From positions 1 to 64,000 of the forward strand of contig NZ_JAILMR010000130.1 of the NCBI RefSeq assembly GCF_024692365.1: DNA of 64,000 bases, read 5' to 3'. Shown here one piece after another: positions 2,375 to 53,905 of the stretch (position 1 is the first letter of the stretch; each line of letters opens with the position of its first letter). The stretch is from Ruminococcus sp. Its GTDB lineage: Bacteria; Bacillota; Clostridia; Oscillospirales; Ruminococcaceae. Position numbers and translations under genes: made by a program. The notes beneath the pieces are model-generated. The model ran no database searches, was not told where the DNA came from, and saw only the letters and a list, made by a program, of their open reading frames with translations.

Positions 2375-2392
2375 TTTAATTTACCCCCGTCC

Positions 2393-3883: not shown

Positions 3884-3909
3884 TGTTTAATATCCCAAAG
3901 CAAAAACGG

Positions 3910-4200
3910 CAATAAAAAAAGCCCCATCATCACACATGACTTCAGTCATGGGACGATAGAACCGTGGTGCCACCCATTTTCCCGACAAAAAACTGTCGGC
4001 TCACAAGGTACGCACTCTTCGGAATGACCTAGAGATCAATACCCCTCCGCACTAACGTAGGGAACACGGCAGGAGATACTCGTAAAAACTTTCGCTCCGC
4101 TCCTCACAAATCCATTCACTGTATGCCCTTGTACTGTCTCACACCGACCGACAGCTCTCTGAAACGCCCTCAAACAGTTACTTACTTTTGCTCACAGGAT
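3910..4200 (-). promoter_or_regulatory. T-box leader (Trp-specific) upstream of trpE
   Basis: Minus strand has T-box core GGGTGGCACCACGGTTC (3959-3975), AGAGAGCTGTCGG stem I segment, specifier-like GAATGGATTTG with UGG, and a 3' hairpin followed by poly-T. Confidence 0.88.
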
Positions 4201-4306
4201 TTCGCATATCAAATTTTCTGTTTTGCATTATATTACTTTTTTGGTCATTTGTCAAGGGGTTTTGAGAAATTTACCATGTTAACTTTTTGTGAACGCTGTT
4301 GAAGAG

Positions 4307-4722
4307 TATGCCAAGGAAGAGAGCTTTATCTCCCGCAAGATAAAGAAGCTATAAACCAATTTACAACCAAGAAAGATAATGCAGCGGATAAAAACTGCCT
4401 ACTAAAGCTAAAAAAGCCCCGCAACAAATATCGCCGGGCTTTCGTTAGTATGTTTGTCTCTCTGTCTTCGATTTGTTTAACCTTAATAACAGTACGACCC
4501 TTGTCATGGAAAAAGTGGTATAGTTCGGTACACGCTCGTATGTTTTGTTATTGCCCGCGCGTTTTTGGTATGAGTTCGTTTCGCTTTTAAACCTTAATCT
4601 GCATTTTAGTTTTGCACATTGATGATTGAGGGACTCCGCCAACAGTCAACAAAGTTGACTGTGCAAACATCCTCGCAAGCCTTTCGCGAAAGGCTTGACC
4701 CAAAGCTCTCTTCCTTGGCATA
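4307..4722. repeat. 416-bp segment bounded by perfect 21-bp inverted repeats
   Basis: tatgccaaggaagagagcttt (4307-4327) and aaagctctcttccttggcata (4702-4722) are exact reverse complements; internal perfect hairpins at 4642-4662 and 4676-4697. Confidence 0.7.
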
Positions 4723-4821
4723 TCTTTCACAATGCTGAAAAAAATTCATAAATCACTTGCAAATCTTCAGAAAATGAGTTATAATAAATAACAGTATTTT
4801 TTATCAATGAAAGGACAGATC

Positions 4822-6129
4822 ATGAAGTTTTATACAAACAAAAAGTACCAGACTATTGCAGTATATGCGGCGGTTGTGATTGCCGTTAATGTACTTCTGG
4901 TGCTGGCACTGAATAATATTTCGGATATACTCGACAGTATCTACAACATTTTTGTAGTCTTGCAGCCAGTGACCTGGGGCTTGATTATCGCGTTTCTCAC
5001 CAACCCGCTTATGGTGCGGACAAGCCGTCTGATAGGGAAACTCTACAAGACTGAGGAACAGAAACGCAAGTCTGCCGGATTCATAAAGGCGGTATCGGTC
5101 ATTATAACCGAGTTGATTTTCCTTGGTATAGTGACAGGTATCGTTGCAATAGTTGTCCCCGAACTTATTAAATCCGTTATGGAGATCTTTGATAATGCAG
5201 GCTCCATAGCTGAGAGCATTCAGAAGTGGATAAACAAGGTGTTCCGCAACTATCCTGCCCTTGAAACTGCGGCAACAAAGTGGCTGTCCGATTTCAATAC
5301 CGATGTGGGCACGATCTACGACAAGCTGAAACCTATGCTTGAAAATATCCTTTCGGGTGCATGGGGAATTGTCACCGTTGTCAAGAACTTCCTGCTGGGT
5401 CTTATAGTTTCGGTCTATATGCTTTGCAGCAAGGAAAAGCTTCTGGCACAGTTCAAAAAGATAATCATAGCCATAACCAAAAAGCGCACCTGCGAAAAGG
5501 TGATGGCAGGTTTCGAGCAGGCAAACACTGTATTTTCAGGCTTTATCACAGGCAAGATAATCGACTCGATAATTATCGGTCTGATATGCTTCATCGGTCT
5601 TACGATAATGAGTATGCCCTATGCTACGATGATCAGCGTTATGATTGGTGTTACGAATATCATACCTTTCTTTGGTCCTCTGATCGGTGCTATCCCCACA
5701 GGTCTGCTGATACTCCTTATCGAACCGCATAAATGTATAATCTTCATCATCTTCATCATAGTACTCCAGCAGTTTGACGGTAATATCCTTGGTCCTAAGA
5801 TTTTGGGAGATTCCACAGGTCTCCCGGGTTTCTGGGTACTGATGTCCCTGCTTCTTTTCGGAGGAATATTCGGATTCGGCGGAATGATTCTTGCAGTGCC
5901 GACTACCGCGCTTCTGTACAGCTTCATAAGAGGATCGGTTGAGGAAAAACTCCGCAAGAAGAAACTTCCTACAAGCACCGAATACTATATGAACGATGTT
6001 CAGCATCTCTATAAAAAGCCCCCCGAGCGCACGCCGCTCACTGCTGAGGAACTTCTCGCACTTGATATCCCGTCAATTGACGAGGTCAACGAAGTTGAAA
6101 AGGTAACACATGAGGAAACCGAAGCATAA
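4822..6129 (+). CDS. AI-2E family transporter (membrane permease)
   Basis: MKFYTNKKYQ... multi-TM; FFGPLIGAIPTG, GPKILGDSTGLPGFWVLMSLLLFGGIFG motifs; GAAAGG RBS upstream of 4822. Confidence 0.88.
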   Translation: MKFYTNKKYQTIAVYAAVVIAVNVLLVLALNNISDILDSIYNIFVVLQPVTWGLIIAFLTNPLMVRTSRLIGKLYKTEEQKRKSAGFIKAVSVIITELIFLGIVTGIVAIVVPELIKSVMEIFDNAGSIAESIQKWINKVFRNYPALETAATKWLSDFNTDVGTIYDKLKPMLENILSGAWGIVTVVKNFLLGLIVSVYMLCSKEKLLAQFKKIIIAITKKRTCEKVMAGFEQANTVFSGFITGKIIDSIIIGLICFIGLTIMSMPYATMISVMIGVTNIIPFFGPLIGAIPTGLLILLIEPHKCIIFIIFIIVLQQFDGNILGPKILGDSTGLPGFWVLMSLLLFGGIFGFGGMILAVPTTALLYSFIRGSVEEKLRKKKLPTSTEYYMNDVQHLYKKPPERTPLTAEELLALDIPSIDEVNEVEKVTHEETEA

Positions 6130-6238
6130 GAATAAAACACATCGTCGTTGTCTAAACAGACAGCGGCGATTTTTTTATGCATATTCGTTGCGTCACGAGC
6201 ATATCTATTTACCATGGACAAGCAAAGGAGTGATAGAT

Positions 6239-7138
6239 TTGCACGATATTACAGCCCTTAAAAATGCGCTGAAACTTCTGCCCGAACATCTGGCGGATAT
6301 GATCGATAAACTTCCGCGGGACGTAATTTCCAAAGTCTGTGAGTTACGTCTGCGTTCAGGTAGACCTCTCGCGCTGACAATGACGAACAGCACGATTATC
6401 CCGAATAAAGATGTTATCGTTACGCCGAAAGACATCGAACTCACTGTCGCGAGGGCTTTCAGGTACTCAATGCACAGCAGTACGGCACAGCTATGCGAGG
6501 GTTATGCGGCTTGTTGTAATGGTGTTCGGGTGGGTATCAGCGGAATGGCTTCGGAAGAATGCGGAAAGGTCATGAATGTCAGGGATATTTCTTCACTGAA
6601 TATCCGTATCCCACGGGAGATGAAAGGCTGTGCTGAGGATATATTTCGACGATTCATGTACGAATGTCCCATATCACTGCTGATAGCGGGCGAACCATCA
6701 TCTGGTAAAACTACGTTTCTGCGTGATCTTGCAAGATTATGCGGTGGAATTTACAGAACAGTCATAATCGACGAACGCAGTGAAATTGCAGCCATGGTAT
6801 CGGGAGTACCCACAAACGATGTAGGCATCATGACAGATGTTTTCGACCGTTACCCGCGCAAAGCCGCCGTTGAGACAGCAGTACGTGTGATGTCACCGCA
6901 GGTGCTTATCTGCGATGAGATAGGTTCTGCGGAGGATATTGCATCTCTCGAATACGCCTGTAATTCAGGGGTAAAGCTGATTGCAACCTGCCACTGCGGA
7001 AGTATTTCGGAGCTGTCAGAAAAGCCGAACATATCTAAGCTTCTGGCAGATGGAATTTTTGACACTGTACTTTTGCTTAAAGACCGTACTGTAAGGAAAA
7101 TCCGAAAAGCAGGTGAGCTTCTTTGCTTGGCACGATAG
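6239..7138 (+). CDS. spoIIIAA: Stage III sporulation protein AA (ATPase)
   Basis: Walker A GEPSSGKTTFLRD, DERSEIAA, first gene of spoIIIA operon; likely TTG start after AAAGGAG. Confidence 0.9.
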   Translation: MHDITALKNALKLLPEHLADMIDKLPRDVISKVCELRLRSGRPLALTMTNSTIIPNKDVIVTPKDIELTVARAFRYSMHSSTAQLCEGYAACCNGVRVGISGMASEECGKVMNVRDISSLNIRIPREMKGCAEDIFRRFMYECPISLLIAGEPSSGKTTFLRDLARLCGGIYRTVIIDERSEIAAMVSGVPTNDVGIMTDVFDRYPRKAAVETAVRVMSPQVLICDEIGSAEDIASLEYACNSGVKLIATCHCGSISELSEKPNISKLLADGIFDTVLLLKDRTVRKIRKAGELLCLAR

Positions 7139-7596
7139 GGTGCATACTTCTGACAGCGGCGGGTGCGGCGGCAGGCGAGAACGCGGCGTATCAGCTTAAA
7201 AAGCGGGAGGGCGAGCTTCGTGAATTAAACAGCCTTATGTCGCAGATAGATATTTATCTGACTTCATGCCGTCTTGACACCGCGGGGATATTTGAACGCA
7301 TCTCCGCCGAAAAGGGAAGCTATAATGCTCTATTTAAATTACGTGATGTTAATATTACCGAATGTGTAGCTTCTCGAATTCGGACAAGCGGACTTGAAAT
7401 GTGTGAGCCGTTTGCCGACCTTATAGAAAAATTCGGTCATACGGACTTAGAAGGTCAGCTTGCACAGAACGCATTGTTTAACGTGGAAGTCAGTGCCGCA
7501 CTTGAAAAGGCTCACACCGCAAGAGAAAAATACACAAGGATATACAGAGCGGCGGGGCTTTCCGTTGGAGTGACTGCCGCGCTGATACTGATATAG
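7123..7596 (+). CDS. spoIIIAB: Stage III sporulation protein AB
   Basis: Position in operon, length 157 aa, KKREGELRELNSLMSQIDIYL. Confidence 0.88.
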   Translation: MLGTIGCILLTAAGAAAGENAAYQLKKREGELRELNSLMSQIDIYLTSCRLDTAGIFERISAEKGSYNALFKLRDVNITECVASRIRTSGLEMCEPFADLIEKFGHTDLEGQLAQNALFNVEVSAALEKAHTAREKYTRIYRAAGLSVGVTAALILI

Positions 7597-7605
7597 GTGA
7601 AAATC

Positions 7606-7803
7606 ATGGAAATCGATCTCATATTCAAGATAGCCGCCGTGGGCATAATCGTGGCGGTGCTGAATCAGCTGCTGAAACGTGCCGAGCGGGACGAACAGGC
7701 GATGATGACAACACTTGCGGGGCTTGTTGTGGTGCTGATGATGGTTGTCAGCAAGATAGGGGAGCTTTTTGATACGATAAAAAGTATCTTCGGGCTTGGT
7801 TGA
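7606..7803 (+). CDS. spoIIIAC: Stage III sporulation protein AC
   Basis: About 65-aa two-TM protein, operon position. Confidence 0.88.
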   Translation: MEIDLIFKIAAVGIIVAVLNQLLKRAERDEQAMMTTLAGLVVVLMMVVSKIGELFDTIKSIFGLG

Positions 7804-8189
7804 TGAATATTGTTATAATATGCGCCTTTGCGGTGGTATCGGCGGTGATCTGCAAGACCGTCAGCAATGACCGCAGTATCGCCATTGTGCTGACCCTTGC
7901 CGCCTCTGCTGTGATATTCATGAAAGCCGTGGGTTCGCTTAGCAGCATTATTGCCGAGATGCGGTCGCTGTTTTTGGTACACAGCGGTACAGACCCTGAA
8001 TATATGCGTATACTGCTGAAAGGTTTGGGAATATGCTATATCACGAGTTTTGCATCAAGCATATGCCGTGACAGCGGAGAAGCGACTCTTGCGGAACAGA
8101 CGATTCTTGCAGGCAAAACCGCGCTTCTGCTTATCGCTCTGCCGATGCTGGAGACTTTGATAGGGATAGTAAAAACACTGCTTATGTGA
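7803..8189 (+). CDS. spoIIIAD: Stage III sporulation protein AD
   Basis: Multi-TM 129 aa, operon position. Confidence 0.87.
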   Translation: MNIVIICAFAVVSAVICKTVSNDRSIAIVLTLAASAVIFMKAVGSLSSIIAEMRSLFLVHSGTDPEYMRILLKGLGICYITSFASSICRDSGEATLAEQTILAGKTALLLIALPMLETLIGIVKTLLM

Positions 8190-8196
8190 GGTCAAA

Positions 8197-9324
8197 ATGA
8201 AAAGGATAATCACTGCTGTACTTGCTATGAGTTTGATGTTCATATTCTGTATTACTGCAAGTGCATCATCTGCCGAAAACGGTCTTGATCGTCTGAAAGA
8301 TGAGATAGATTCATCACTAAGTCGTGCCCTTGATGATAGCACCGCTGATGATATGGACGAGCTTGGTGTAACGCCCTCAGATGCGGCAAAGCTCGAAAAG
8401 CTTGATATGCGGACTTTCTTCGGGTGGCTGTGGGGGCGTTTCCGTGAAACGCTCTGCACTCCCGCGGTTATGCTGGGCAGGATACTTGCGGTGTCACTGT
8501 TGTATTCCGCCATGACTTTTCTCACCACTGAAAACCGAGAATTAGGCTCGACTTACGGGAATATCTGCGTTATTGCTGTGATAACCGTTATGGCTGACAC
8601 ATTATCGTCAAGCTTTTCTGCTTTGCAGGATTCGATAACCTGTATAAACAGATTCATGCTTACCTACATACCTGTATTTTCGGCGATATCAGCGGCAAGC
8701 GGCAACCCTGCGGCGGCGGGTGCATATAGTTCCTCAACTGTGCTTTTGTGCGAAGCGGCAGGGTTCATCGCATCGGGAGTGCTGATACCATTTATGAGCG
8801 CATTCATGGCGATAGCTGTGGTGTCGGCTTTGAACACCAGAGTTAAACTGTCGGGCGTGGCTGATGTGATACGCAGGCTGACGGTCTGGCTGCTTGCGGC
8901 GCTGATGCTTGTGTTTGTGGGACTTCTCACAATACAGGGCGTTACCTGTTCGGCGGCGGATTCAGTCGCCGCAAAGACGATTCGCTTTACAGCTTCAAGC
9001 TTTATACCTGTTATCGGAAGTTCGGTCTCGGACGCTTATCTTGCTGTTAAAAGCGGTGTGGGGGTGATCCGTGCGGCGGTGGGCGGATTTGGTATGATTG
9101 CGGTATTTCTGATCGCTCTGCGACCGTTTTTGATTCTGTTGTCGGTGCGGCTGACTTTATGGGCGGGCAGAATAGCAAATGATTTTCTTGGTCTGAGACC
9201 CACAGCCGAACTTTTGAGAACTATGGATTCGGTAATGGCTGTGGGCGGAAGTATCCTTATCGCGATAACATCTGCTTTTATCATCGCGACTGCGGCTGTA
9301 CTATCTTTTATGACTATGGGGTGA
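8197..9324 (+). CDS. spoIIIAE: Stage III sporulation protein AE
   Basis: 375 aa polytopic protein with signal segment, operon position. Confidence 0.88.
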   Translation: MKRIITAVLAMSLMFIFCITASASSAENGLDRLKDEIDSSLSRALDDSTADDMDELGVTPSDAAKLEKLDMRTFFGWLWGRFRETLCTPAVMLGRILAVSLLYSAMTFLTTENRELGSTYGNICVIAVITVMADTLSSSFSALQDSITCINRFMLTYIPVFSAISAASGNPAAAGAYSSSTVLLCEAAGFIASGVLIPFMSAFMAIAVVSALNTRVKLSGVADVIRRLTVWLLAALMLVFVGLLTIQGVTCSAADSVAAKTIRFTASSFIPVIGSSVSDAYLAVKSGVGVIRAAVGGFGMIAVFLIALRPFLILLSVRLTLWAGRIANDFLGLRPTAELLRTMDSVMAVGGSILIAITSAFIIATAAVLSFMTMG

Positions 9325-9328
9325 TGTA

Positions 9329-9835
9329 ATGAGTGAGATAAAATCTGCGATCAGTATAGCCTGTTTTATGGGCGTTATAGGAACGATCATCGACATGATC
9401 TCACCCTCGGGCGGAATGAAAAAGCACCTCATGTCCCTGCTCGGTCTGATAACTCTGCTGGCTGTGATATCGCCCTTTGTTTCATCGGGATTCAGGCTTT
9501 CTCTCGATGATATCGATTTGTCCGCTGACATCGAGATTGAAAAGATACATACCTCAGCTGATGTTAACGAGATCTTTCTTGAAGAAGCAAAACTCCGCTA
9601 TGATGAATATTTCACCGATCTGCTGAATAAGAATGATATCACAGATGCAGAGATAAATACAGAGCTGAGTTTTACGGCGGAAAATGAACTTGAAATAACG
9701 GCGGTAGATGTCAAGTTAGAAGACTTAGCATCAGCGCAAGATGCGGAAAAACTGATATCAGCAGAAGTCAGCGGGGCAGAGATAAGGATAGGAAAGGCAG
9801 AAGATGAAGATACAGCTTCAACAGTTGGCGGATAG
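9329..9835 (+). CDS. spoIIIAF: Stage III sporulation protein AF
   Basis: Two N-terminal TM segments then soluble domain, operon position. Confidence 0.82.
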   Translation: MSEIKSAISIACFMGVIGTIIDMISPSGGMKKHLMSLLGLITLLAVISPFVSSGFRLSLDDIDLSADIEIEKIHTSADVNEIFLEEAKLRYDEYFTDLLNKNDITDAEINTELSFTAENELEITAVDVKLEDLASAQDAEKLISAEVSGAEIRIGKAEDEDTASTVGG

Positions 9836-10349
9836 GTTCAGGCAAAGTCCGAACAGGCTGAAAATCGCGGTGGTGCTGGGGGCGGCGGGTATGCTGATGA
9901 TCATGCTTTCCGAACTTGTTCCCGAAAGCAAGGATAAGCCCGAAAAAGCTATGCCGCAGACCGAAACCACCGACAGCGACGATTTCAGGAAGCGCACCGA
10001 AAGGGAACTCAAAGAACTTCTTGAACAGATAGAGGGCGTTGGGGAGTGCGAGGTTATGATATCACTTGAAAGCAGTACCGAGTACATCTACGCCGAGAAT
10101 ATCAGCCGTTTTACCGAAGATAACGCCGACCGACGAAGCGAAAAGCTTGATGAGGATATCGTCATAACCGAAAACGGCGGGACAAGACAGCCGCTCATAA
10201 GAAAGGTCATCGACCCGCAGATAGGGGGAGTGGTCATCGTGTGTGAAGGAGGAGGGGACATCAGCATAAATGAACGTGTGCAGAAAGCAGTTTCGACCGC
10301 CCTAAACATTTCGTCAACCAGGGTTTGTGTGGAAGCTAAATGCAGATAG
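9804..10349 (+). CDS. spoIIIAG: Stage III sporulation protein AG
   Basis: Single TM, ELKELLEQIEGVGECEVMISLES, IGGVVIVCEGG. Confidence 0.87.
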   Translation: MKIQLQQLADRFRQSPNRLKIAVVLGAAGMLMIMLSELVPESKDKPEKAMPQTETTDSDDFRKRTERELKELLEQIEGVGECEVMISLESSTEYIYAENISRFTEDNADRRSEKLDEDIVITENGGTRQPLIRKVIDPQIGGVVIVCEGGGDISINERVQKAVSTALNISSTRVCVEAKCR

Positions 10350-10370
10350 ACGGAAAAGAGGTACATAATC

Positions 10371-10916
10371 ATGAAAAAGCCAAGTTTTGTTATAGGTAAA
10401 AAACAGATAGTCCTTGCGGGAATGACCCTGATGCTGGGCATAGCAGTGTATGCAAACTATGCTGTGACTTCGTCGGGCGGCGGGATAAAGACTACCGATA
10501 AGATAGAAAAGCACAGTGCTGAATACGGTGAAGCCGAACTTGTCAGCGTTGATAAGAACAGCACCGATTATTTTGCGCAGGCGAGGATTGAGCGTATGAA
10601 CGCACGCGATGAAGCAAAGGAAACTCTGAAGACCATAATAAACGGCGGTGACGCTACCGAGGAAGAAAAGGAAGTCGCAGCGGAAGAAGCCGCTGCTATG
10701 ACAGGTCGGATGGAATCGGAAAGCAAGATAGAATCACTTGTAAAGGCGGCAGGGTTTACGGACTGCGTATGTTATCTTGACGGTGACAATGCGAACATCG
10801 TAGTCAAGGCAGGTTCGGAGGGATTGATAGCAAGTGAAGCCGCACAGATAAAGGATATACTTTTGAGTGAGGTTTGCGTACCGACTGAGAATATTCGTAT
10901 ATTTGATGTTGCATAA
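10371..10916 (+). CDS. spoIIIAH: Stage III sporulation protein AH
   Basis: KKPSFVIGKKQIVLAGM start, YFAQARIERMNARDEAKETL. Confidence 0.88.
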   Translation: MKKPSFVIGKKQIVLAGMTLMLGIAVYANYAVTSSGGGIKTTDKIEKHSAEYGEAELVSVDKNSTDYFAQARIERMNARDEAKETLKTIINGGDATEEEKEVAAEEAAAMTGRMESESKIESLVKAAGFTDCVCYLDGDNANIVVKAGSEGLIASEAAQIKDILLSEVCVPTENIRIFDVA

Positions 10917-10927
10917 TATAAAGGAAA

Positions 10928-10975
10928 TAACCGTCCGTATCCCGACGTAACGTTTTGGGGTGCGGGCGGTTTTGT
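10928..10975 (+). terminator. Probable intrinsic terminator of spoIIIA operon
   Basis: AACCGTCCGTATCCC ... GGGGTGCGGGCGGTTTT imperfect hairpin with T-tract. Confidence 0.55.
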
Positions 10976-11047
10976 TGGTACGGTTTCGTATTGATGTGGT
11001 CTTAGAATGATACGAATGCATACCACTTGATACCAAAGGATACGAAC

Positions 11048-11080
11048 TTATACCAAATCATACGGTCGTATAATTTGGTA
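11048..11080. repeat. Palindromic intergenic repeat (ACCAAA-N-ATACG/CGTAT-N-TTTGGT type), copy 1
   Basis: accaaatcatacg-gt-cgtataatttggt at 11052-11079; shares 16-mer ttataccaaatcatac with the 55.3-kb intergenic region. Confidence 0.65.
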
Positions 11081-11205
11081 GATGGTTTCATTCAAAAAGA
11101 TTCGCTCGTATACTTTTCGGTGCAAAAGATACATGATAAGTTACGGTGCTATGTGTTCGTATCGTTAAGGGCTGATGTTTAATGCGAAAAAATGCGCTTG
11201 GTGTC

Positions 11206-11234
11206 TTTACTTTTGCAGAAAAATATGTTATAAT
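11206..11234 (+). promoter_or_regulatory. Sigma-A-like promoter for the Asp23 gene
   Basis: TTTACT-N17-TATAAT. Confidence 0.6.
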
Positions 11235-11296
11235 ACTTTCAAGTATACAAATAACGGGGCTGATGTCCCGCTGAATATTTTACGGGAGGTATCATT

Positions 11297-11650
11297 ATGT
11301 CAGAAAACACCAACAAAGTCGAGAAAAGTCTTCATATAAATCAGGACGTTATCGCACAGATCATCACCAACTCTATGGCTGAGGTCGATGGAGTATACGG
11401 CGTAGCACCCGTCATGAAGACACCCAGACAGATCTGGCTCAGACAGGAAAGTGTGGGAAATATCAGGATAGGACTCGTTGACGATGTTCTTTCCGTTTCG
11501 ATAGGTGTCATTCTCAACAACGGCACCAATGCGATAACCGCTGCCGAGATGATACAGGAGCAGGTCAAGAGCGCTGTGCAGACAATGCTGGGGCTCACCG
11601 TTGCCAAGGTTAACGTAACGATCTGCGGCGTTCATTTCAGTGAGGACTGA
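11297..11650 (+). CDS. Asp23/Gls24 family envelope stress response protein
   Basis: HINQDVIAQIITNSMAEVDGVYGVAP..., next to nusB as in many Firmicutes. Confidence 0.88.
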   Translation: MSENTNKVEKSLHINQDVIAQIITNSMAEVDGVYGVAPVMKTPRQIWLRQESVGNIRIGLVDDVLSVSIGVILNNGTNAITAAEMIQEQVKSAVQTMLGLTVAKVNVTICGVHFSED

Positions 11651-11698
11651 TACCGCAATTATCAATGTATCAGAATAATTTTTGTTAGGAGTGTTTGT

Positions 11699-12112
11699 GT
11701 GGCAGGAAGACGAGAAGTAAGACAGGCTGCTTTTCTGCTGTCTTTTGAAAAAATGTTTTTGGACGATGATCTGGATAAGATATTTGAGAGTGCCGAGGAA
11801 CTTGGTGAGTTCATACCTGTGAACGATGAGGTAAAGGCTCTTGTACGCGGCATATTCGATAAGCAGGAGGAGCTTGATTCCATAATATCGAAGTATTCCG
11901 ACAAGCGCGCTGTCAGCCGTATCCCGAAGGTAGATCTTACTGCGCTTAGACTTGCTATCTACGAAGCGCTTTATGATGAAAAAGTACCTGTGAACGTTGC
12001 GATAAGCGAGGCTGTTTCTCTTACCGAGAAGTATGCACTCGAACCTGATATTGCTTTCGTTAACGGTCTCCTTGGTTCATTTGCAAAGGATATCAAAAAG
12101 GGCGAGAACTGA
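11699..12112 (+). CDS. nusB: Transcription antitermination factor NusB
   Basis: RREVRQAAFLLSFE...PKVDLTALRLAIYE...FVNGLLGSFAKD. Confidence 0.92.
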   Translation: MAGRREVRQAAFLLSFEKMFLDDDLDKIFESAEELGEFIPVNDEVKALVRGIFDKQEELDSIISKYSDKRAVSRIPKVDLTALRLAIYEALYDEKVPVNVAISEAVSLTEKYALEPDIAFVNGLLGSFAKDIKKGEN

Positions 12113-13053
12113 TGGGCGTATACTTAGGTATAGACACCAGTAATTACAGGACGAGCTGTGCGCTGTATGACAGTGTTATGGGAGAAGTTAAGTCGTGCAG
12201 ACAGCTTCTGCCCGTGAAAAAAGGTGAGCGCGGATTAAGGCAGTCAGACGCGGTGTTCCATCATACCAAACAGCTTCCATCGCTTATTGAGGAACTGTTT
12301 GCTGATAAACCGCAGTTGTCGGGTTGTGCATATTCCTATGCCCCGAGGGAAGTTGAGGGATCGTATATGCCTTGCTTTCTTGTGGGTGAAAACGTGTGCA
12401 GAGCAGTTTCTGCGGCGGCGGGGATAGTGCCCGAACGTACCTCTCACCAGAAAGGTCATGTGCTGGCGGCGCTGTATTCCTGCAAAAAGCTCGGTCTTCT
12501 CGATAGCGGCGAACCTTTTCTTGCGTTCCATGTCAGCGGCGGTACTACGGATATGCTGCTGTGCAGAGGGGACAAGGAAAAGGTCGTTTCTTTGACGGAG
12601 GCAGGTCATTCCGATGACCTTAAAGCGGGTCAGTGTATCGACAGGCTGGGTGTAAGGCTGGGACTGGATTTTCCATGCGGTGAGGAACTTGAAGAGCTCG
12701 CACGCAAAAGTGATAGGGAATTCAGGATAAGACCCTCGGTAAAAGGGCTTGACTGCTCGCTTTCGGGCGTTGAGAACAAGTGCATGGCTATGCTTGAAAA
12801 AGGGGAGTCACCCGAGGATACGGCTAAGTTCTGTCTGGACTATATCTGTGAGACCATTTCGGCTATGACAAAGGCGGGTCTTGAAAAATACGGCGATATG
12901 CCCGTTATCTATGCAGGCGGCGTCATGGCGGACAAGCTTATTGCTGATAAGCTTTCCGAAAGATTTGACGCATATTTTGCTGCGCCGGATTTTTCGGGGG
13001 ATAATGCTGTGGGCATAGCACTTTATGCCTCGATGAAAGGAAAAGCGCAATGA
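12112..13053 (+). CDS. TsaD/Kae1-like peptidase M22-family paralog
   Basis: YLGIDTSNYRTSCAL ASKHA start, SHQKGH metal motif, FHVSGGTTD. Confidence 0.8.
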   Translation: MGVYLGIDTSNYRTSCALYDSVMGEVKSCRQLLPVKKGERGLRQSDAVFHHTKQLPSLIEELFADKPQLSGCAYSYAPREVEGSYMPCFLVGENVCRAVSAAAGIVPERTSHQKGHVLAALYSCKKLGLLDSGEPFLAFHVSGGTTDMLLCRGDKEKVVSLTEAGHSDDLKAGQCIDRLGVRLGLDFPCGEELEELARKSDREFRIRPSVKGLDCSLSGVENKCMAMLEKGESPEDTAKFCLDYICETISAMTKAGLEKYGDMPVIYAGGVMADKLIADKLSERFDAYFAAPDFSGDNAVGIALYASMKGKAQ

Positions 13054-14270
13054 GTGTTCTGACGGTAAGTCAGCTCAACAAACTGCTGGCATTCAAGATT
13101 AAGCAGGAGCTTAAATTTAAAGGTGCGGCGGTAAAGGGCGAGATATCAAATTTCAGTATACATTTCAAGACGGGTCACGCCTTTTTTACGATAAAGGACG
13201 AAACCAGTTCCATAAAGTGCATCATGTTCGCGGGGCGGGTAAAGAAGCTTAAAGCTCTGCCCGAAAACGGCATGAGCGTACTTGTTATGGGCGATGTTGA
13301 AGTGTATGAGCGCGAGGGCTCATGCCAGATAATCGCGACGGAGATAGCTGTTCTCGGCAGTACGGGCATAGCTTTTGCGAAAAACGAGCTTCTGAAAGAC
13401 AAGCTCAAAAAGCTGGGCGTGTTTGACCAGTCAAAGAAAAAAGCCTTACCCGTGGTTCCGAAAAAGCTGGCGGTGGTAACATCGGCGGACGGTGCTGCTT
13501 TGCAGGATATACTGAATATCGTGGGCAGACGTTATCCCGTATGCACGGTGGAAGTCTATCCTGCAACGGTACAGGGTGACACTGCACCTGCATCCGTTTG
13601 CGGTGCGCTGAAAGCCGCTGACAGAAGCGGTGCTGATACAATAATTCTTTCAAGGGGCGGAGGTTCTTCCGAAGACCTTGATGCTTTCAATTCGGAGATA
13701 GTTGTTATGGCGGTGGCGGATTGCGTCACACCTGTGATATCTGCTGTGGGGCACGAGACCGATACCACTCTTGCAGACTATGCCGCCGATATGCGGGCAC
13801 CTACGCCATCTGCGGCTGCAGAGCTTGCAACTCCCGATATCGTGGATATGTATGCGGCGGCAAACGTTATGAAAGCACGGCTGGATTCCGCTTTTGGAAT
13901 GTATCTCCGCGGCAGAATGATCGAACTTGAAAAGCTGGATACAAGGCTGAGGGCTTCTTCACCGAAACGTCGGCTGAAAGAATCCGAAAAGCGTCTTGAA
14001 GAAGCGGCGGGCAGACTTCGTATGCTGATGGAGAACAAGCTTAAAGTCAGCGAGCTTAGTCTGGAAAGGGCAGAAGCTCAGCTGAGGACTTTAAGCCCAT
14101 ACAATGTTCTCGGCAGGGGATATGCCCTTGTGGAAAGCGGTGGTTCTGCCATAACTTCGGTGAAAGATATCACTGAGGGCATGGAGATATGCGTAAGATT
14201 CGCCGATGGCAGCGTAAGTGCTGTCACTGCAAAGATCAATGACCGAAAGGCTGATATAAATGACATTTGA
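13050..14270 (+). CDS. xseA: Exodeoxyribonuclease VII large subunit
   Basis: OB-fold N-term VKGEISNFSIHFKTGHAFFTIKD; RGGGSSEDLDAFN; ISAVGHETDTTLADYAADMRAPTPSAAAE. Confidence 0.96.
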   Translation: MSVLTVSQLNKLLAFKIKQELKFKGAAVKGEISNFSIHFKTGHAFFTIKDETSSIKCIMFAGRVKKLKALPENGMSVLVMGDVEVYEREGSCQIIATEIAVLGSTGIAFAKNELLKDKLKKLGVFDQSKKKALPVVPKKLAVVTSADGAALQDILNIVGRRYPVCTVEVYPATVQGDTAPASVCGALKAADRSGADTIILSRGGGSSEDLDAFNSEIVVMAVADCVTPVISAVGHETDTTLADYAADMRAPTPSAAAELATPDIVDMYAAANVMKARLDSAFGMYLRGRMIELEKLDTRLRASSPKRRLKESEKRLEEAAGRLRMLMENKLKVSELSLERAEAQLRTLSPYNVLGRGYALVESGGSAITSVKDITEGMEICVRFADGSVSAVTAKINDRKADINDI

Positions 14271-14448
14271 AGAAAATCTGCAAAGACTTGAAGAGATAGT
14301 GGGGCAGCTTGAAAGCGATAAACTCCCTTTGGATAAGGCGCTTGAACTTTACAAAGAGGGCGTGGGTCTGACGGCAGACAGCAAAAAAGCTCTGGAGAAC
14401 GCCAAACTCACGGTAAAAACTATGAACGGAGAAAATACTGATGACTGA
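14260..14448 (+). CDS. xseB: Exodeoxyribonuclease VII small subunit
   Basis: MTFEENLQRLEEIVGQLESDKLPLDKALELYKEGV. Confidence 0.95.
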   Translation: MTFEENLQRLEEIVGQLESDKLPLDKALELYKEGVGLTADSKKALENAKLTVKTMNGENTDD

Positions 14449-15334
14449 TAGACATGAACAGCTATTGAATGCTTATGCTGAAAAAATAAATGAGCAGCTG
14501 TTGAAATTCACCGAAAATAAGCCAGAACTTCAAAGTGCTGTGCTTCAGGCGATGGAGTATTCACTTTCTGCGGGCGGCAAAAGGCTCAGACCTATCCTGA
14601 TACTTGAATTTTATCGTATGTGCGGCGGCGAGAACATCGACAAGATGGTGAAGCTTGCCTGCGCGGTTGAGCTTATCCACACATATTCGCTGATACATGA
14701 CGATCTGCCCTGCATGGATAATGACGATTTCCGCAGGGGCAAGCCCTCATGCCACAAGGCTTTTTCCGAGGATATAGCTCTGCTTGCTGGCGATGCGCTG
14801 AATACTCTTGCTTTTGAGGTCATCACAGACTGCGCTATGGAAGGAACTATATCGGCTGAAACAGCTGTTATGCTCATATCGGTGCTTTCAAAAGCCATCG
14901 GTACCTACGGGATGATCGGCGGTCAGGTGATCGATCTTCAGACAGAGAATGAAGTTATCGACCTTGAGACACTGAATACTCTTCAGGCTTATAAAACAGG
15001 TGCTCTTATTGAAGCTGCCTGTGTTATGGGCGTTATACTTTCGGGCAAGATGGAGTATATCCCTGCGGCGGCAGACTATGCTCAGGCAATGGGCAGAGCT
15101 TTCCAGATTGTTGATGATATCCTTGATGTTACCGGTACTTTTGAAGAACTGGGCAAGCCTATCGGCAGCGACAGCGAACAGCACAAGAACACCTACGTTT
15201 CTCTGCTGGGTCTGCAAAGGTCGAGACAGAAAGCGGCTCAGCTGACTGTTACAGCACTGGGTGCTCTGAAGAAATTTGAAAATAACGAATTTTTGTTTGA
15301 GCTCACTCAGGAGCTGCTTGAAAGACGCTCATGA
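14441..15334 (+). CDS. ispA: Polyprenyl (farnesyl/geranyl) diphosphate synthase
   Basis: GGKRLRP, HDDLPCMDNDDFRRG, QIVDDILD. Confidence 0.94.
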   Translation: MTDRHEQLLNAYAEKINEQLLKFTENKPELQSAVLQAMEYSLSAGGKRLRPILILEFYRMCGGENIDKMVKLACAVELIHTYSLIHDDLPCMDNDDFRRGKPSCHKAFSEDIALLAGDALNTLAFEVITDCAMEGTISAETAVMLISVLSKAIGTYGMIGGQVIDLQTENEVIDLETLNTLQAYKTGALIEAACVMGVILSGKMEYIPAAADYAQAMGRAFQIVDDILDVTGTFEELGKPIGSDSEQHKNTYVSLLGLQRSRQKAAQLTVTALGALKKFENNEFLFELTQELLERRS

Positions 15335-48652: not shown

Positions 48653-49141
48653 ATGCCTTATCCAAAGGGCGATAAACGCAGCTCGGATTCCATTACCGAG
48701 ATAACCAAACTTATACAGTACCGTGACATCAACGGTGAGAACCGTCTTTTCGGCGGCAGACTTATGGAATGGATAGATGAAGCCGCAGGTGTAGCCGCAA
48801 TGCGTCACTGCGGAGGAAATGCAGTTACACTTATGGTGGACAGCCTAAAATTCAAGCACGGCGCATTCATAAACGATATAGTAGTCCTCATCGCAAAGGT
48901 GACTTACGTTGGCAGAACCTCGATGGAAGTCCGCGTTGATACCTATGTTGAGGATAAAGGTTCTGGAATCCGCCGAGCAATCAACCATGCTTACCTTACC
49001 TGTGTTCATGTCGATGAAGAAGGTAGACCCAAGCCCATCGAATACGGCATTATCCCTGAGGGTATAACCGAACAGGCAGAATACGAGGGAGCAAGAAAGC
49101 GCATCGCTATCCGCAAACAAAGAACAGCCGAAGGTTTCTGA
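48653..49141 (+). CDS. Acyl-CoA thioesterase (hotdog fold)
   Basis: NRLFGGRLMEWIDEAAGVAAMRHCGG, YVGRTSMEVRVDTYVED. Confidence 0.87.
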   Translation: MPYPKGDKRSSDSITEITKLIQYRDINGENRLFGGRLMEWIDEAAGVAAMRHCGGNAVTLMVDSLKFKHGAFINDIVVLIAKVTYVGRTSMEVRVDTYVEDKGSGIRRAINHAYLTCVHVDEEGRPKPIEYGIIPEGITEQAEYEGARKRIAIRKQRTAEGF

Positions 49142-49161
49142 TAATAAACATGAATATACCA

Positions 49162-49200
49162 AACACCGCCTCAGCCGTGATTTTCAGCTGAGGCGGTGTT
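49162..49200. terminator. Intrinsic terminator after thioesterase
   Basis: aacaccgcctcag ... ctgaggcggtgtt. Confidence 0.85.
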
Positions 49201-49337
49201 TGTGTTTTACATTTAAATAGGGGATTGCGAAAATCGAGTCGCCCGAGCCGCAGCAAACAGCCGACAGTTCAGAGGGTCTGCCGGCTGAATGCTTTGAAGA
49301 TCGGGTGTTACTTTGTATTTTATAAATTCAGCAAAAG

Positions 49338-49487
49338 TCATTTGCGGAATTTATCAATACCTTTTGGTTCTTTCGGCTGATTATACCAGAAAATGCAAGC
49401 CTGTTTATTGGTGCTCACACCAACTTTCAGTGCCAGTGATGCCAGAGCCGAGCCGGATCTTACCTTCAGTTTCTTCAATGTTTTCAT
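49338..49487 (-). CDS. agrD-like: AgrD-like cyclic lactone/thiolactone autoinducer pro-peptide (49 aa)
   Basis: MKTLKKLKVRSGSALASLALKVGVSTNKQACIFWYNQPKEPKGIDKFRK: basic amphipathic leader, Cys plus four bulky residues, then QPKEPK; AAAGGAG RBS; downstream of agrB. Confidence 0.85.
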   Translation of the reverse strand: MKTLKKLKVRSGSALASLALKVGVSTNKQACIFWYNQPKEPKGIDKFRK

Positions 49488-49518
49488 ATTATCCACTCCT
49501 TTTAATAATATGTATAAC

Positions 49519-49571
49519 CCCGACACTGCGGCTGCAAATTACCGAACAGCCGCGCTTCCTTAACTGTCGGG
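49519..49571 (-). other. Nested stem-loop directly upstream of agrD-like gene
   Basis: cccgaca/tgtcggg outer arms (49519-49525, 49565-49571), gcggctg/cagccgc inner arms (49528-49534, 49547-49553). Confidence 0.7.
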
Positions 49572-49625
49572 AATTATCATCACCTTATCCATATATTCCT
49601 TTGACTATATTCTGTTTAATTCATT

Positions 49626-50231
49626 TTACGATCTCAGCTCAAGATCTATTCCTTTTGAATCGAGTATCATTTTTATATTTTTCCTGTCCTTGGGGAACTG
49701 GGTCTTAACAAGAGTCATGTTTTTTGACTGTATCTTCTTTAACGTGCTCAGGCTGATATTTGAAGTTACTCTCAGCCTGTTCAGAGTTTCATCGCTCATT
49801 CTCACGTGTTTTATGCTTTTCCAGAAAGGCAGGTCTTTTCTCTTGCCTGAAAATTTCAGCGTGCTGCTGAAAAGTTTGTCATTTGAATAACGCCCTGCAA
49901 CAGGTGCGTTGTTAAGTATATGTTCTTCAAGATGATCAAACAGATCATCAAGCTTTTTATCAACCAGGATCCTTTTAAGGATGCCAAGTGGTATCTTGTG
50001 AAGATATTCCACGTTCGTATCGGTATCATCAACATTAAGTGAAGTGTAATAATAATCCATACCGTAAATAAGTATCACCGAAAGTGAAAGTGCCTGACTG
50101 TCATAAGCATCAAAATAGATATTTACATATACATCGTTGTATGTAAAATGATACTTCGTAAATGTATCATCGATGTGATGTCCCACACTGTTATAATCGT
50201 TTATCAGTTTGTCTTTGACTTTGCTATTCAT
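49626..50231 (-). CDS. Hypothetical 201-aa protein, translationally coupled to agrB
   Basis: ORF start overlaps agrB stop as ATGA (50228-50231); family not recognised. Confidence 0.8.
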   Translation of the reverse strand: MNSKVKDKLINDYNSVGHHIDDTFTKYHFTYNDVYVNIYFDAYDSQALSLSVILIYGMDYYYTSLNVDDTDTNVEYLHKIPLGILKRILVDKKLDDLFDHLEEHILNNAPVAGRYSNDKLFSSTLKFSGKRKDLPFWKSIKHVRMSDETLNRLRVTSNISLSTLKKIQSKNMTLVKTQFPKDRKNIKMILDSKGIDLELRS

Positions 50232-50809
50232 ACAATTTTCTCCTTAAGCTTGATTTTCTCTGCTATCATCGCCATTGCTATCGTAAATACACCAGATGCC
50301 GCATAAAAACAGAAACGAACATCAACTACGATAAACACTACGCAGAACACCGTCCATATCCCCGCCCATTTAACTGACTTGTCCCGAAGTTTCCTTTTCA
50401 TGTCTTCGCTTATCGGTTTGTTAGGGTGTTCCACAGGCGAAAGCATTATGATAAGTATATTTGAAAGCAACAGCATCATAAGTGAATTAAAAAACATTGC
50501 AACTTCCGAAATATTCTTTTCAGCAAATATAAAAATAAGCAAAGTCGATACCAATGTCATCGTACAGCCTAAGTGAGTATCTGCGTGGTATCCGCCCGCA
50601 TTTACCCGCAGTGTCAGGAATGCTGCAAGATTCACAAGACAAGGAAGAATTGACTTTGTTGCCACAGCGATAACTATCGCAACAGCAAAATTCAGCACTG
50701 TCGATATCAGAAGTTCCATCCCGTAGGAGTAAACTTCAGCATCTTCTGCCTCGATTATCTTATTGTCAACAAAAAAACACGCTGTACTTTTTGCAAGTCT
50801 GGAGATCAT
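50228..50809 (-). CDS. agrB-like: AgrB family accessory gene regulator (peptide-processing membrane protease)
   Basis: 193 aa polytopic; LRVNAGGYHADTHLGCTM carries the AgrB catalytic His and Cys. Confidence 0.93.
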   Translation of the reverse strand: MISRLAKSTACFFVDNKIIEAEDAEVYSYGMELLISTVLNFAVAIVIAVATKSILPCLVNLAAFLTLRVNAGGYHADTHLGCTMTLVSTLLIFIFAEKNISEVAMFFNSLMMLLLSNILIIMLSPVEHPNKPISEDMKRKLRDKSVKWAGIWTVFCVVFIVVDVRFCFYAASGVFTIAMAMIAEKIKLKEKIV

Positions 50810-50831
50810 TTCATTTTCACCGCCTGCAATA

Positions 50832-50898
50832 AGTATAGCGTGTTATATTCATTTTTTCAATTAGTTTTGCATGAAGTACCATTAATCGTGCATGAAGT
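50832..50898 (-). promoter_or_regulatory. agrB promoter with LytTR-type direct repeats
   Basis: Minus strand ACTTCATGCA-N11-ACTTCATGCA (21-bp period; 50898-50889 and 50877-50868) then TATACT (50837-50832). Confidence 0.78.
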
Positions 50899-50907
50899 GA
50901 CATTTCG

Positions 50908-52185
50908 TTAATATTTTATTATAATATCAACCGAGAAGATTTCACATTCGCACTTAAAAGTTATTATACCGTTAAGTTCCTCAACGGCTTTTTTGATACT
51001 TTTTACCCCCAATCCATGTGCTGAAAGATCATTTTTCTCCGTCCGCAGATCGTTAACATCTACCTGATTTGAAGAATTTGAAACACTTATATGAAGATTT
51101 CCGTTTATCTGGCTTATCCTGATACTGATAAACTTGTTATCACCGCCGTAACGTTCACAACCTTCTATCGCATTGTCAAGCAGATTAGCAAATATCCTGC
51201 AAAGCAGAAGATCATCAAGTTCAATTTTGTCAGACACCGTTATCTGCGTGACGTACTCAATGTTGTATTTCAAAGCTTCCTGCCATTTCATATTAACGAT
51301 GGAGTCAACCGAAGAAATCCCAGTATAGCATACTCCGCTTGTTTCCGAAAGTTTATCCTGTAATTCGTTCAGGTGTTTTATAGCTTCACGTGTACGTCCT
51401 TTCTCAAACATATCGTTTGCTACCGCTATCTGATTCTTGAAATCATGCCGAAGCGTCCTTATCTCATTGTACTTGTTCTCTATCAGCTTGTAATTGTCTT
51501 CATCATTTTTCAGCTGCTGTTCCATCAGCGCCATTTTCAGCTGATTTGCATACACATCAAAGAAGTCAAAAACAAACAGATTCAAAGCAAGCAGTCCAAC
51601 CGTCGATGCTATAAATATTATTGTGTCCTTGGTATTCACTCTGTTGGGGTCGAACATACTGTAAAGTATAAGTATGCTGAAAATCGGTGTGAGTATTATG
51701 GCAAACCAGTTTCTCAGTGGTATCGATCGCGTTTTGTTTTTCAGGTATTCGATGATGTATACCGATATCCAGAACATGAATATTTTTGATATTATCATGC
51801 CGATATAACGCGCTTTTCCCGAAGAAAGCTGATCTGTCGGCGTCCCTATGTCCAGCATATAGAGTACAGCAATAGGAACGAATTCTGATACCAGTGCTAT
51901 CACGATGAACATCACCGAATAAAACAAGCGCTCGATCATACTGACGTTGAACCAGACTTGCGAAGTCAGTACCAGTATCACCATAGTTGCACCAAGATTA
52001 AGCAGAGGCACAGCCATGAAGAATGATATAGCAGAAAATACAGATATGGATATAACCGTCATCAAAGCTATACCCTTGGAACCGTGATAATATTTCTCTT
52101 TGAATATGTTGTACAGAAAGAAAACTATTATAACAGATTCCGCCGCATTGTTCAACAGCTCGGCTATTATTTCCGTCCTGTTCAT
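50908..52185 (-). CDS. agrC-like: AgrC-like GHKL sensor histidine kinase
   Basis: About six N-term TMs; IRTLRHDFKNQIAVANDM H-box; LLDNAIEGCERYG N-box; GLGVKSIKKAVEEL. Confidence 0.9.
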   Translation of the reverse strand: MNRTEIIAELLNNAAESVIIVFFLYNIFKEKYYHGSKGIALMTVISISVFSAISFFMAVPLLNLGATMVILVLTSQVWFNVSMIERLFYSVMFIVIALVSEFVPIAVLYMLDIGTPTDQLSSGKARYIGMIISKIFMFWISVYIIEYLKNKTRSIPLRNWFAIILTPIFSILILYSMFDPNRVNTKDTIIFIASTVGLLALNLFVFDFFDVYANQLKMALMEQQLKNDEDNYKLIENKYNEIRTLRHDFKNQIAVANDMFEKGRTREAIKHLNELQDKLSETSGVCYTGISSVDSIVNMKWQEALKYNIEYVTQITVSDKIELDDLLLCRIFANLLDNAIEGCERYGGDNKFISIRISQINGNLHISVSNSSNQVDVNDLRTEKNDLSAHGLGVKSIKKAVEELNGIITFKCECEIFSVDIIIKY

Positions 52186-52904
52186 CAGATGCACCTGCTT
52201 TTTGTGTACTCGACAAAGGCATCAACAACTTCCTTGTAGTGCTTTCGGCTAATGTAAAGATGTTCGCCGTTTTTCAGTAGCAGCCTGTCCTTTTCCACAA
52301 AATCGATGTTTGCCGCATTAACAAGATGGCTCTTATCGGGCTTCGCAAAATACATTCCCTTGAAATTATTCTCGTAGTCTTTCAGCTTACCCGTTGTCCT
52401 ATGGCATTTGTCCGCCAGATGAATGATTATCTCCCTCGAATACACCTCGATGTAATAAATGTCATCTATCATCAGCTTTTGCAGAACATCATTCAGATAT
52501 ATAGTGATATACTTGAACTTTCTGCTGTATTCATCGATCGTGTCTTTTATCTGTTTCAGGTATATGGGACGCGCCTGATCTTTCAGTATGTAACGGAAAG
52601 CGTTCACCTCGTATCCCGAATATACGAATTTATCATAATTTGTCAGAAATGCAAGTATAACATTGCGGTCGATAGAGCGTATATATTCCGCAGTTTTAAG
52701 TCCGTCCAGTTCTTTCATCTCAATGTCCATGAAGATAATATCAAACTGACCTCTCGAAAAATTAGAAATGATATCTTCACCGCTGTTGAACGCACGGAAA
52801 TGAAAGCTGTTGTCTTCTCCGTAGATCTCAGCTATGTCTTTCAGCAGTATATCAACATAGGACTTTTCATCATCACAGATCGCGATATTCACCAAGGCTG
52901 TCAC
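52185..52904 (-). CDS. agrA-like: AgrA-like LytTR response regulator
   Basis: REC: NIAICDDEKSYVD, DIIFMDIEMKELDGL; LytTR C-term: DDIYYIEVYSREIIIHLADKCHRTTGKLKDYE...LVNAANI. Confidence 0.93.
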   Translation of the reverse strand: MTALVNIAICDDEKSYVDILLKDIAEIYGEDNSFHFRAFNSGEDIISNFSRGQFDIIFMDIEMKELDGLKTAEYIRSIDRNVILAFLTNYDKFVYSGYEVNAFRYILKDQARPIYLKQIKDTIDEYSRKFKYITIYLNDVLQKLMIDDIYYIEVYSREIIIHLADKCHRTTGKLKDYENNFKGMYFAKPDKSHLVNAANIDFVEKDRLLLKNGEHLYISRKHYKEVVDAFVEYTKSRCI

Positions 52905-53168
52905 CTTCCTTATAGATTATTCGGTTATAATTAGTATATCATTCATTATAACAATAATCAAGTATCGTTATGATATTTTTCTTATCTAGTCCATACTTTC
53001 TATGATATATACCGCGATAAATCATGAAATCAGTCGAATGTCAATTTTTTGTGAACAATGATTATTAAGATCAACGCGAAATTACGCTTCGTTAAGTAAT
53101 ATTAGCTAGATAACACAATGTATGAATCTACTATGTATAATATAATACCAAATAATTAATATCAATGC

Positions 53169-53234
53169 ATCTCATGCACTGAAATTAGCACTTCATGTAC
53201 AAACTATTGAAATAAAAAATTAATATGATATACT
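53169..53234 (+). promoter_or_regulatory. Promoter of the 124-aa gene with LytTR-type direct repeats
   Basis: ATCTCATGCA (53169-53178) and ACTTCATGTA (53190-53199), 21-bp period, then TATACT at 53229-53234. Confidence 0.7.
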
Positions 53235-53359
53235 TAAATCAATCTATAAGACAGATATCAAAACACGGAAAAAAATCATCCTTTATCCATGCACCATCAT
53301 ATCGTCTCTTAATAGATAGCGTTATCTATTAATAATATTATTTTAAGGAGGGCATTTAT

Positions 53360-53734
53360 ATGTCAGAGTTGGAAAAGAACTTAGTAGCAGAGAATCGTGG
53401 TTCCACCGAAAGTGCAAATCACCTGTTTCTCAGAAACATCGGTGCATATGTATGTGAACTCGACATCTTGGTTTTCAGGGACGGTGAAGAAAAGCGTATC
53501 CATGGAACGGGTAAGGATATCTGCGTCGGACAATCTGAAGAACTAGACCTGACCAACTATAATATTGAAAAAGGTGAGATGGTCAATGTCTACGTCAATG
53601 TTAAAGGTGGCAAAGACACACATGGAAATAAGTGGGTCGAGTATGATCCCGAAGTTAACAGAAGAGCCAATTATGAGGCTTGCGGCACTACACTAATAAA
53701 TCATTGTGATTTTTTAGGTACAACATCGATATAG
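53360..53734 (+). CDS. Conserved-looking hypothetical protein (124 aa), candidate quorum output
   Basis: MSELEKNLVAENRG...VKGGKDTHGNKWVEYDPEVNRRANYEACGTTLINHCDFLG; AAGGAGGG RBS; own promoter and terminator. Confidence 0.82.
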   Translation: MSELEKNLVAENRGSTESANHLFLRNIGAYVCELDILVFRDGEEKRIHGTGKDICVGQSEELDLTNYNIEKGEMVNVYVNVKGGKDTHGNKWVEYDPEVNRRANYEACGTTLINHCDFLGTTSI

Positions 53735-53787
53735 TGATAAATCTCATATTTATTATCCACGGCATGACCGTAGATAGCTCCATCGCA

Positions 53788-53813
53788 GAAGCCTGCCCTC
53801 ATGGGTGGGCTTC
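53788..53813 (+). terminator. Intrinsic terminator downstream of the 124-aa gene
   Basis: gaagcctgccc-tcat-gggtgggcttctt. Confidence 0.75.
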
Positions 53814-53837
53814 TTGCATTGTATACGGATAATTCAG

Positions 53838-53866
53838 TTGACTTCTGAACCCGAATGTTGTATAAT
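53838..53866 (+). promoter_or_regulatory. Promoter of tyrosine recombinase gene
   Basis: TTGACT-N17-TATAAT. Confidence 0.65.
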
Positions 53867-53905
53867 CAGTTATAGCTGAATCCGTAACGATATGGAGATG
53901 AAAAA

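Follow-up and report, generated by a model that had tools for sequence, protein, structure and literature searches.

A probable AgrD signal-peptide precursor with a predicted CIFWY ring in a complete Agr locus of the Ruminococcus albus group

The minus-strand open reading frame at positions 49338-49487 very probably encodes AgrD, the precursor of a cyclic signal peptide used in density sensing, because the family model, the operon context, and the conservation of the frame agree. It lies in a stretch of 64,000 nucleotides of Ruminococcus DNA (hereafter, the window) whose genome belongs to the Ruminococcus albus group; R. albus itself lives in the rumen and degrades cellulose. The locus is a complete Agr locus of a known type, in which this AgrD is a previously undescribed member, and literature searches returned no study of this peptide. 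The type of system is familiar; the control sites that neighbor it and one extra gene are unstudied. A rumen-signaling review describes the evidence for signaling by autoinducing peptide (AIP) in rumen bacteria as limited and reports agrA/agrB genes in 199 rumen genomes (PMC10838665). With a candidate CIFWY peptide, a reporter promoter defined by its box, and one predicted target, peptide signaling in the R. albus group is therefore directly testable.

We regard the account as a whole as highly probable: an AgrD of an R. albus-group Agr locus, a CIFWY ring, sensing by a kinase and its regulator, and binding of the regulator to boxes at two promoters. Its steps can be divided into three. First, processing: AgrB would cut the 49-residue precursor between Y35 and N36 and link the C31 thiol with the carboxyl of Y35, so that C-I-F-W-Y closes into a ring of five, and a second protease would remove the leader near A30, leaving zero or a few exocyclic residues. 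Second, sensing: the GHKL kinase would detect the peptide outside the cell and phosphorylate the LytTR regulator. Third, output: the regulator would bind direct repeats with a 21-bp period, located 7 bp upstream of TTGAAA promoters, its action at the agrB-X-agrD promoter (X being the extra gene) providing positive feedback and its action at a divergent 124-residue gene providing the output.

The peptide scores 33.5 bits against the NCBIfam model TIGR04223 (quorum_AgrD; curated cut-off 19, E 3.2e-8), and its comparison with Pfam gave no significant match. Translation places its sole cysteine at position 31, followed by I-F-W-Y-N-Q-P-K-E-P, and the sequence upstream of the ATG, read on the reverse complement, is AAAAGGAG. 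Across all 49 residues, the frame is kept at 61-88% identity in five places within 4 of the 28 other genomes of the genus; the one relative that bears a name, R. albus AR67, has 84% identity and shares the core without change. The original prediction had described one cysteine at position 31 ahead of IFWY and NQPKEP in an AgrD-like layout. The translation bears out this description, and the AgrD identity is supported by the score above the cut-off, the operon context, and the conservation. "Single Cys" holds for the AgrD encoded here, whereas that of two close relatives has a second cysteine in the leader, at position 11. The hydrophobic moment of the leader, calculated as a test for an amphipathic helix, is 0.217 and no better than that of shuffled sequences, 1091 of 5000 of which reach it.

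The gene lies 3' of agrB, the kinase gene, and the regulator gene on the same strand, and the order of transcription, all on the minus strand, is LytTR regulator, GHKL kinase, agrB, the 201-residue gene, and agrD, or A-C-B-X-D (Table 1). Both the receptor kinase and the response regulator were recognized by their Pfam domains (PF14501, PF00072, and PF04397). In an alignment of 27 AgrB rows from 28 matches (L018, with masked residues, was left out), C82 is invariant and H75 is shared by 26 rows; we take these residues to be the catalytic pair, by analogy with S. aureus AgrB. Among the relatives, G005 has the order regulator, kinase, agrB, 201-residue gene, agrD; G002 has regulator, kinase, agrB, and agrD without the 201-residue gene; and the stretches of G003 that were read cover the regulator, agrB, the 201-residue gene, and agrD. 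Directly upstream of the regulator gene in G002 is a secreted-looking protein of 848 residues with a weak transglutaminase-core match (L055:10651-13197, minus strand).

Table 1. Features of the agr locus and its surroundings, in window coordinates.
Feature	Position	Strand	Description
agrD	49338..49487	-	49-aa AIP precursor; translation MKTLKKLKVRSGSALASLALKVGVSTNKQACIFWYNQPKEPKGIDKFRK*
agrD parts			leader 1 to ~30; predicted ring C31-I-F-W-Y35; predicted AgrB cut between Y35 and N36; tail NQPKEPKGIDKFRK
Hairpin	49518..49571	-	stems CCCGACA/TGTCGGG (outer) and GCGGCTG/CAGCCGC (inner); located after the 201-aa gene and before the ribosome site of agrD
201-aa protein gene	49626..50231	-	between agrB and agrD; 4-nt overlap with the end of agrB
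agrB	50228..50809	-	membrane peptidase that would cut and cyclize AgrD; Pfam AgrB PF04647, E 9.9e-39
Predicted box and agrB promoter	50832..50898	-	ACTTCATGCA-N11-ACTTCATGCA, period 21, 50868-50898; 7 bp; TTGAAA-17-TATACT
agrC-like receptor histidine kinase	50908..52194	-	GHKL HATPase_c_5 PF14501, E 2.8e-18
agrA-like response regulator with LytTR DNA-binding domain	52185..52904	-	Response_reg PF00072, E 1.3e-12; LytTR PF04397, E 7.7e-16
Second predicted box and promoter	53169..53234	+	ATCTCATGCA-N11-ACTTCATGTA; 7 bp; TTGAAA-16-TATACT; directed away from the agr operon
Orphan ORF, 124 aa	53360..53734	+	predicted target of the second box

The position of the ring can be read from a comparison of 38 AgrD rows, each representing one locus. 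The rows come from a search of the genus (10 matches, spread over 7 of 29 genomes) and one of the family (39 of 197 genomes with a score above the cut-off), whose matches were only partly assigned a locus; L002, L036, and L040, being genes already counted, were left out. The nucleophile is Cys in 32 of the 38 rows and Ser in 6, and in 37 of them its distance to the Q or E that opens a QP-type tail motif is exactly six residues; C31 of the window's AgrD, six residues before Q37, fits this spacing. The rule therefore places the predicted ring at C31-Y35 and the AgrB cut between Y35 and N36. It has an exception, since L041 is spaced longer, implying a ring of six residues. The C31-Y35 ring of the original prediction is supported by this spacing and by an AgrD of like layout, Clo1313_2818 of Clostridium thermocellum, for which targeted LC-MS/MS showed a cyclic pentapeptide, with a Ser25-Phe29 ring, Tyr30 directly after it, and a proline at position 35 (PMC5322536). 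Its "bulky aromatic" core is present as CIFWY but is not exceptional in the family. At least three of the ring residues are F, W, or Y in 11 of the 38 rows, CIFWY itself accounting for four of these and the others including CWWWY, CFHWF, and CLWFF; we accordingly rejected the idea that an aromatic ring is unusual here.

A tentative alternative concerns the chemistry of the ring: the mature signal may be homodetic cyclo(CIFWY) rather than a thiolactone, formed after complete trimming of the leader to Cys31 by an S-to-N acyl shift. This form is possible because trimming right at Cys31 would free the cysteine amine to take over the thioester. Alanine directly precedes the ring Cys or Ser in 23 of the 38 rows, which would fit a cut immediately before that residue, and a clostridial case of homodetic rearrangement has reportedly been described by Molloy et al. 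in 2021. In Listeria and other species, pentameric thiolactones without an exocyclic tail rearrange spontaneously to homodetic cyclopeptides by the same shift (PMC11297923). In Listeria, the thiolactone was more potent than the rearranged form (PMC11297923), which argues for the thiolactone as the signal, and we think the homodetic form possible, on balance doubtful.

Selection on the core of AgrD is visible in the codons. Residues 30-44 are invariant among G000, G003, and G005: in the three pairs, 2, 4, and 2 of these 15 codons differ synonymously and none nonsynonymously, and the leader (residues 1-29) carries 5, 7, and 3 nonsynonymous differences. The core of agrD is thus under purifying selection. 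In G002, CIFWY is kept, with H replacing N36 and D replacing K42. Comparison of the peptides suggests that genomes sharing CIFWY could hear each other's signal, given an identical ring. The change at N36 also bears on the size of the ring. If AgrB cut one residue later, the ring would hold six residues (C31-N36), as the spacing of L041 (1 of 38 rows) would allow, but this is very unlikely: the other 37 rows have the five-residue spacing, the G002 orthologue varies at N36 with C31-Y35 unchanged, and the peptide proven by mass spectrometry in C. thermocellum is a pentapeptide.

Regulators of the LytTR class, AgrA among them, recognize repeats of nine bases set about 12 bp apart. In front of agrB, the window holds a direct repeat that only 1 of 2000 shuffles matched at a period of 20-21; the corresponding counts of 2000 were 0 in G003, 20 in G005, and 13 in G002. 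The predicted box and a TATACT stand before agrB in four genomes (this one and three relatives), with a promoter prediction in this one. A second predicted box and promoter precede the divergent gene; the repeat of this box, taken alone, is not significant (249 of 2000 shuffles as good), but the box recurs at the corresponding position in G003 and, degenerated, in G005. A scan of the whole genome with the joint box pattern gave exact matches at the two agr-locus sites only. At up to two mismatches, 57 matches were found against 45 in the backwards control, near background, and no wider regulon emerged from the scan of this genome; since the pattern itself derives from those two sites, the outcome says no more than that a third good site is lacking. 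Exact matches in the relatives fall at agr in G003 (2 of 2) and G005 (1 of 1); G002 has one exact match, elsewhere and with no TATACT behind it, and one mismatch at its agr site. From this geometry of box and promoter before agrB and before the divergent gene, we predict positive feedback at the former and one local target at the latter.

The 201-residue open reading frame that separates agrB from agrD is a genuine gene under strong purifying selection. Each of the three pairs gives a dN/dS of about 0.05, below the 0.09-0.13 of agrB; both values are rough because dS approaches or exceeds 1 in several pairs. The protein had no match in Pfam, NCBIfam, or PADLOC; it matches PHROG 25249, a family with no assigned function (E 3e-23), and despite this match no phage relatives were found in phage records or viral contigs. 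A phmmer comparison with solved structures yielded no convincing match (best E 0.018), and an AlphaFold single-sequence model was poor (mean pLDDT 45.6). The gene is found in 3 of 29 genomes of the genus at E < 1e-100, all three of the R. albus group, the remaining matches being chance-like (E 0.03-0.55), and in 2 of 197 genomes of the family, both of the R. albus group; a four-row profile run against 398 genomes of the phylum matched one, this genome itself. Its relatives are in four Campylobacter plasmid records, at 35-36% identity over 94%, and in the one inspected its neighbors include HicAB and a gene of RelE/ParE type. The gene looks horizontally acquired. A role for the protein in AgrD processing is a guess, and so is one in protection. 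On a larger reading, the protein, co-transcribed with agrB from the box-bearing promoter and subject to purifying selection apparently stronger than that on agrB, would be a new working part of the Agr system, acting in AgrD processing, export, signal release, or as a guard or immunity protein, and forming with the two-box regulon a compact, self-contained cassette assembled partly by horizontal transfer; we consider this reading improbable.

The divergent 124-residue orphan gene, the predicted target of the second box, was matched in 2 of 29 genomes of the genus, and no convincing match appeared elsewhere among the 398 phylum genomes (two at E 0.006-0.007). Its protein had no match in Pfam, PHROG, or PADLOC, and its AlphaFold single-sequence model was poor (mean pLDDT 47.2). 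The frame is interrupted in G005, where a 97-residue stretch remains, and mostly deleted in G003, with about 21 codons left; that the box persists there after the gene has decayed agrees with the product being optional. That the agr locus is a decayed or silent remnant, as the interruption and loss of this target might suggest, is very unlikely, given that all four agr genes and the 201-residue gene are open here, the dN/dS values of agrB and of the 201-residue gene are low (rough as they are), and the promoter and box are kept.

The 138-nt spacer in front of agrD, which holds a hairpin, folds with a z-score of -2.9, and 1 of 200 shuffles is as good. The hairpin is near-identical and folded alike in G003 and G005, where the spacer fold (z -0.8 and -1.4) is not clearly better than that of shuffles (44 and 14 of 200 as good), and the spacer of G002 folds no better than chance (91 of 200). 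Perhaps, as a guess, the hairpin is an element of mRNA processing or stability. A search of positions 49100-53900 with Rfam gave no family match, RNAIII included. On the other side of agrD, a strong inverted repeat, CACCGCCTCAGC...GCTGAGGCGGTG, spans 49150-49210 between agrD and the convergent gene at 48653-49141; it is perhaps a shared terminator and was not among the predictions of the terminator scan.

Other agrD loci in the comparison set have different neighbors. G001 carries two tandem agrD units with the ring CWWWY (L053, G001:C2:626000-645000, 2359-15324), whose promoters are alike in layout but whose repeats do not stand out from shuffled sequences (544 and 1962 of 2000 as good). Just before each CWWWY agrD lies a second AgrD-like peptide with ACSITYCQPKEP (L053:6816-7028 and 13034-13201, minus strand). 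Each unit is followed by a large secreted protein; the two have a near-identical N-terminal part, TSP3 repeats, and differing C-terminal domains, Amidase_6 in one and Ntox44 in the other, and a small gene beside each could encode immunity. We infer from this arrangement that the G001 units are quorum-linked, interbacterial polymorphic toxins. In L019, L029, and L037, secreted-looking open reading frames downstream of agrD match the G001 protein over its N-terminal part (E 1e-14 to 2e-39 by phmmer), and the link between agrD and toxins may recur across genomes.

Compared with known systems, the window's AgrD resembles C. thermocellum Clo1313_2818 in its five-residue ring, followed by Y or N and by a conserved proline at similar spacing; it differs in having a Cys and a full locus, whereas the C. 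thermocellum ring is a Ser lactone and its gene has no agr neighbors (PMC5322536). With the TIGR04223 family, of the clostridial C-x4-[HYN]-QPKxP type, it has in common the leader, the nucleophile, the five-residue spacing, the QPKEP tail, and the adjoining AgrB, and what sets it apart is the CIFWY sequence of the ring. The agrBDCA system of S. aureus consists of a peptidase, a precursor, a receptor kinase, and a LytTR regulator with a direct-repeat promoter box, and the window has the same types of component and a predicted box of this kind. The arrangement is different: S. aureus has the order B-D-C-A with agrB and agrD adjacent, and the window A-C-B-X-D. The kinase and regulator genes lie behind agrD in S. 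aureus and upstream of the box-bearing promoter in the window, which also differs in the extra gene X between agrB and agrD and in having no RNAIII-type Rfam match.
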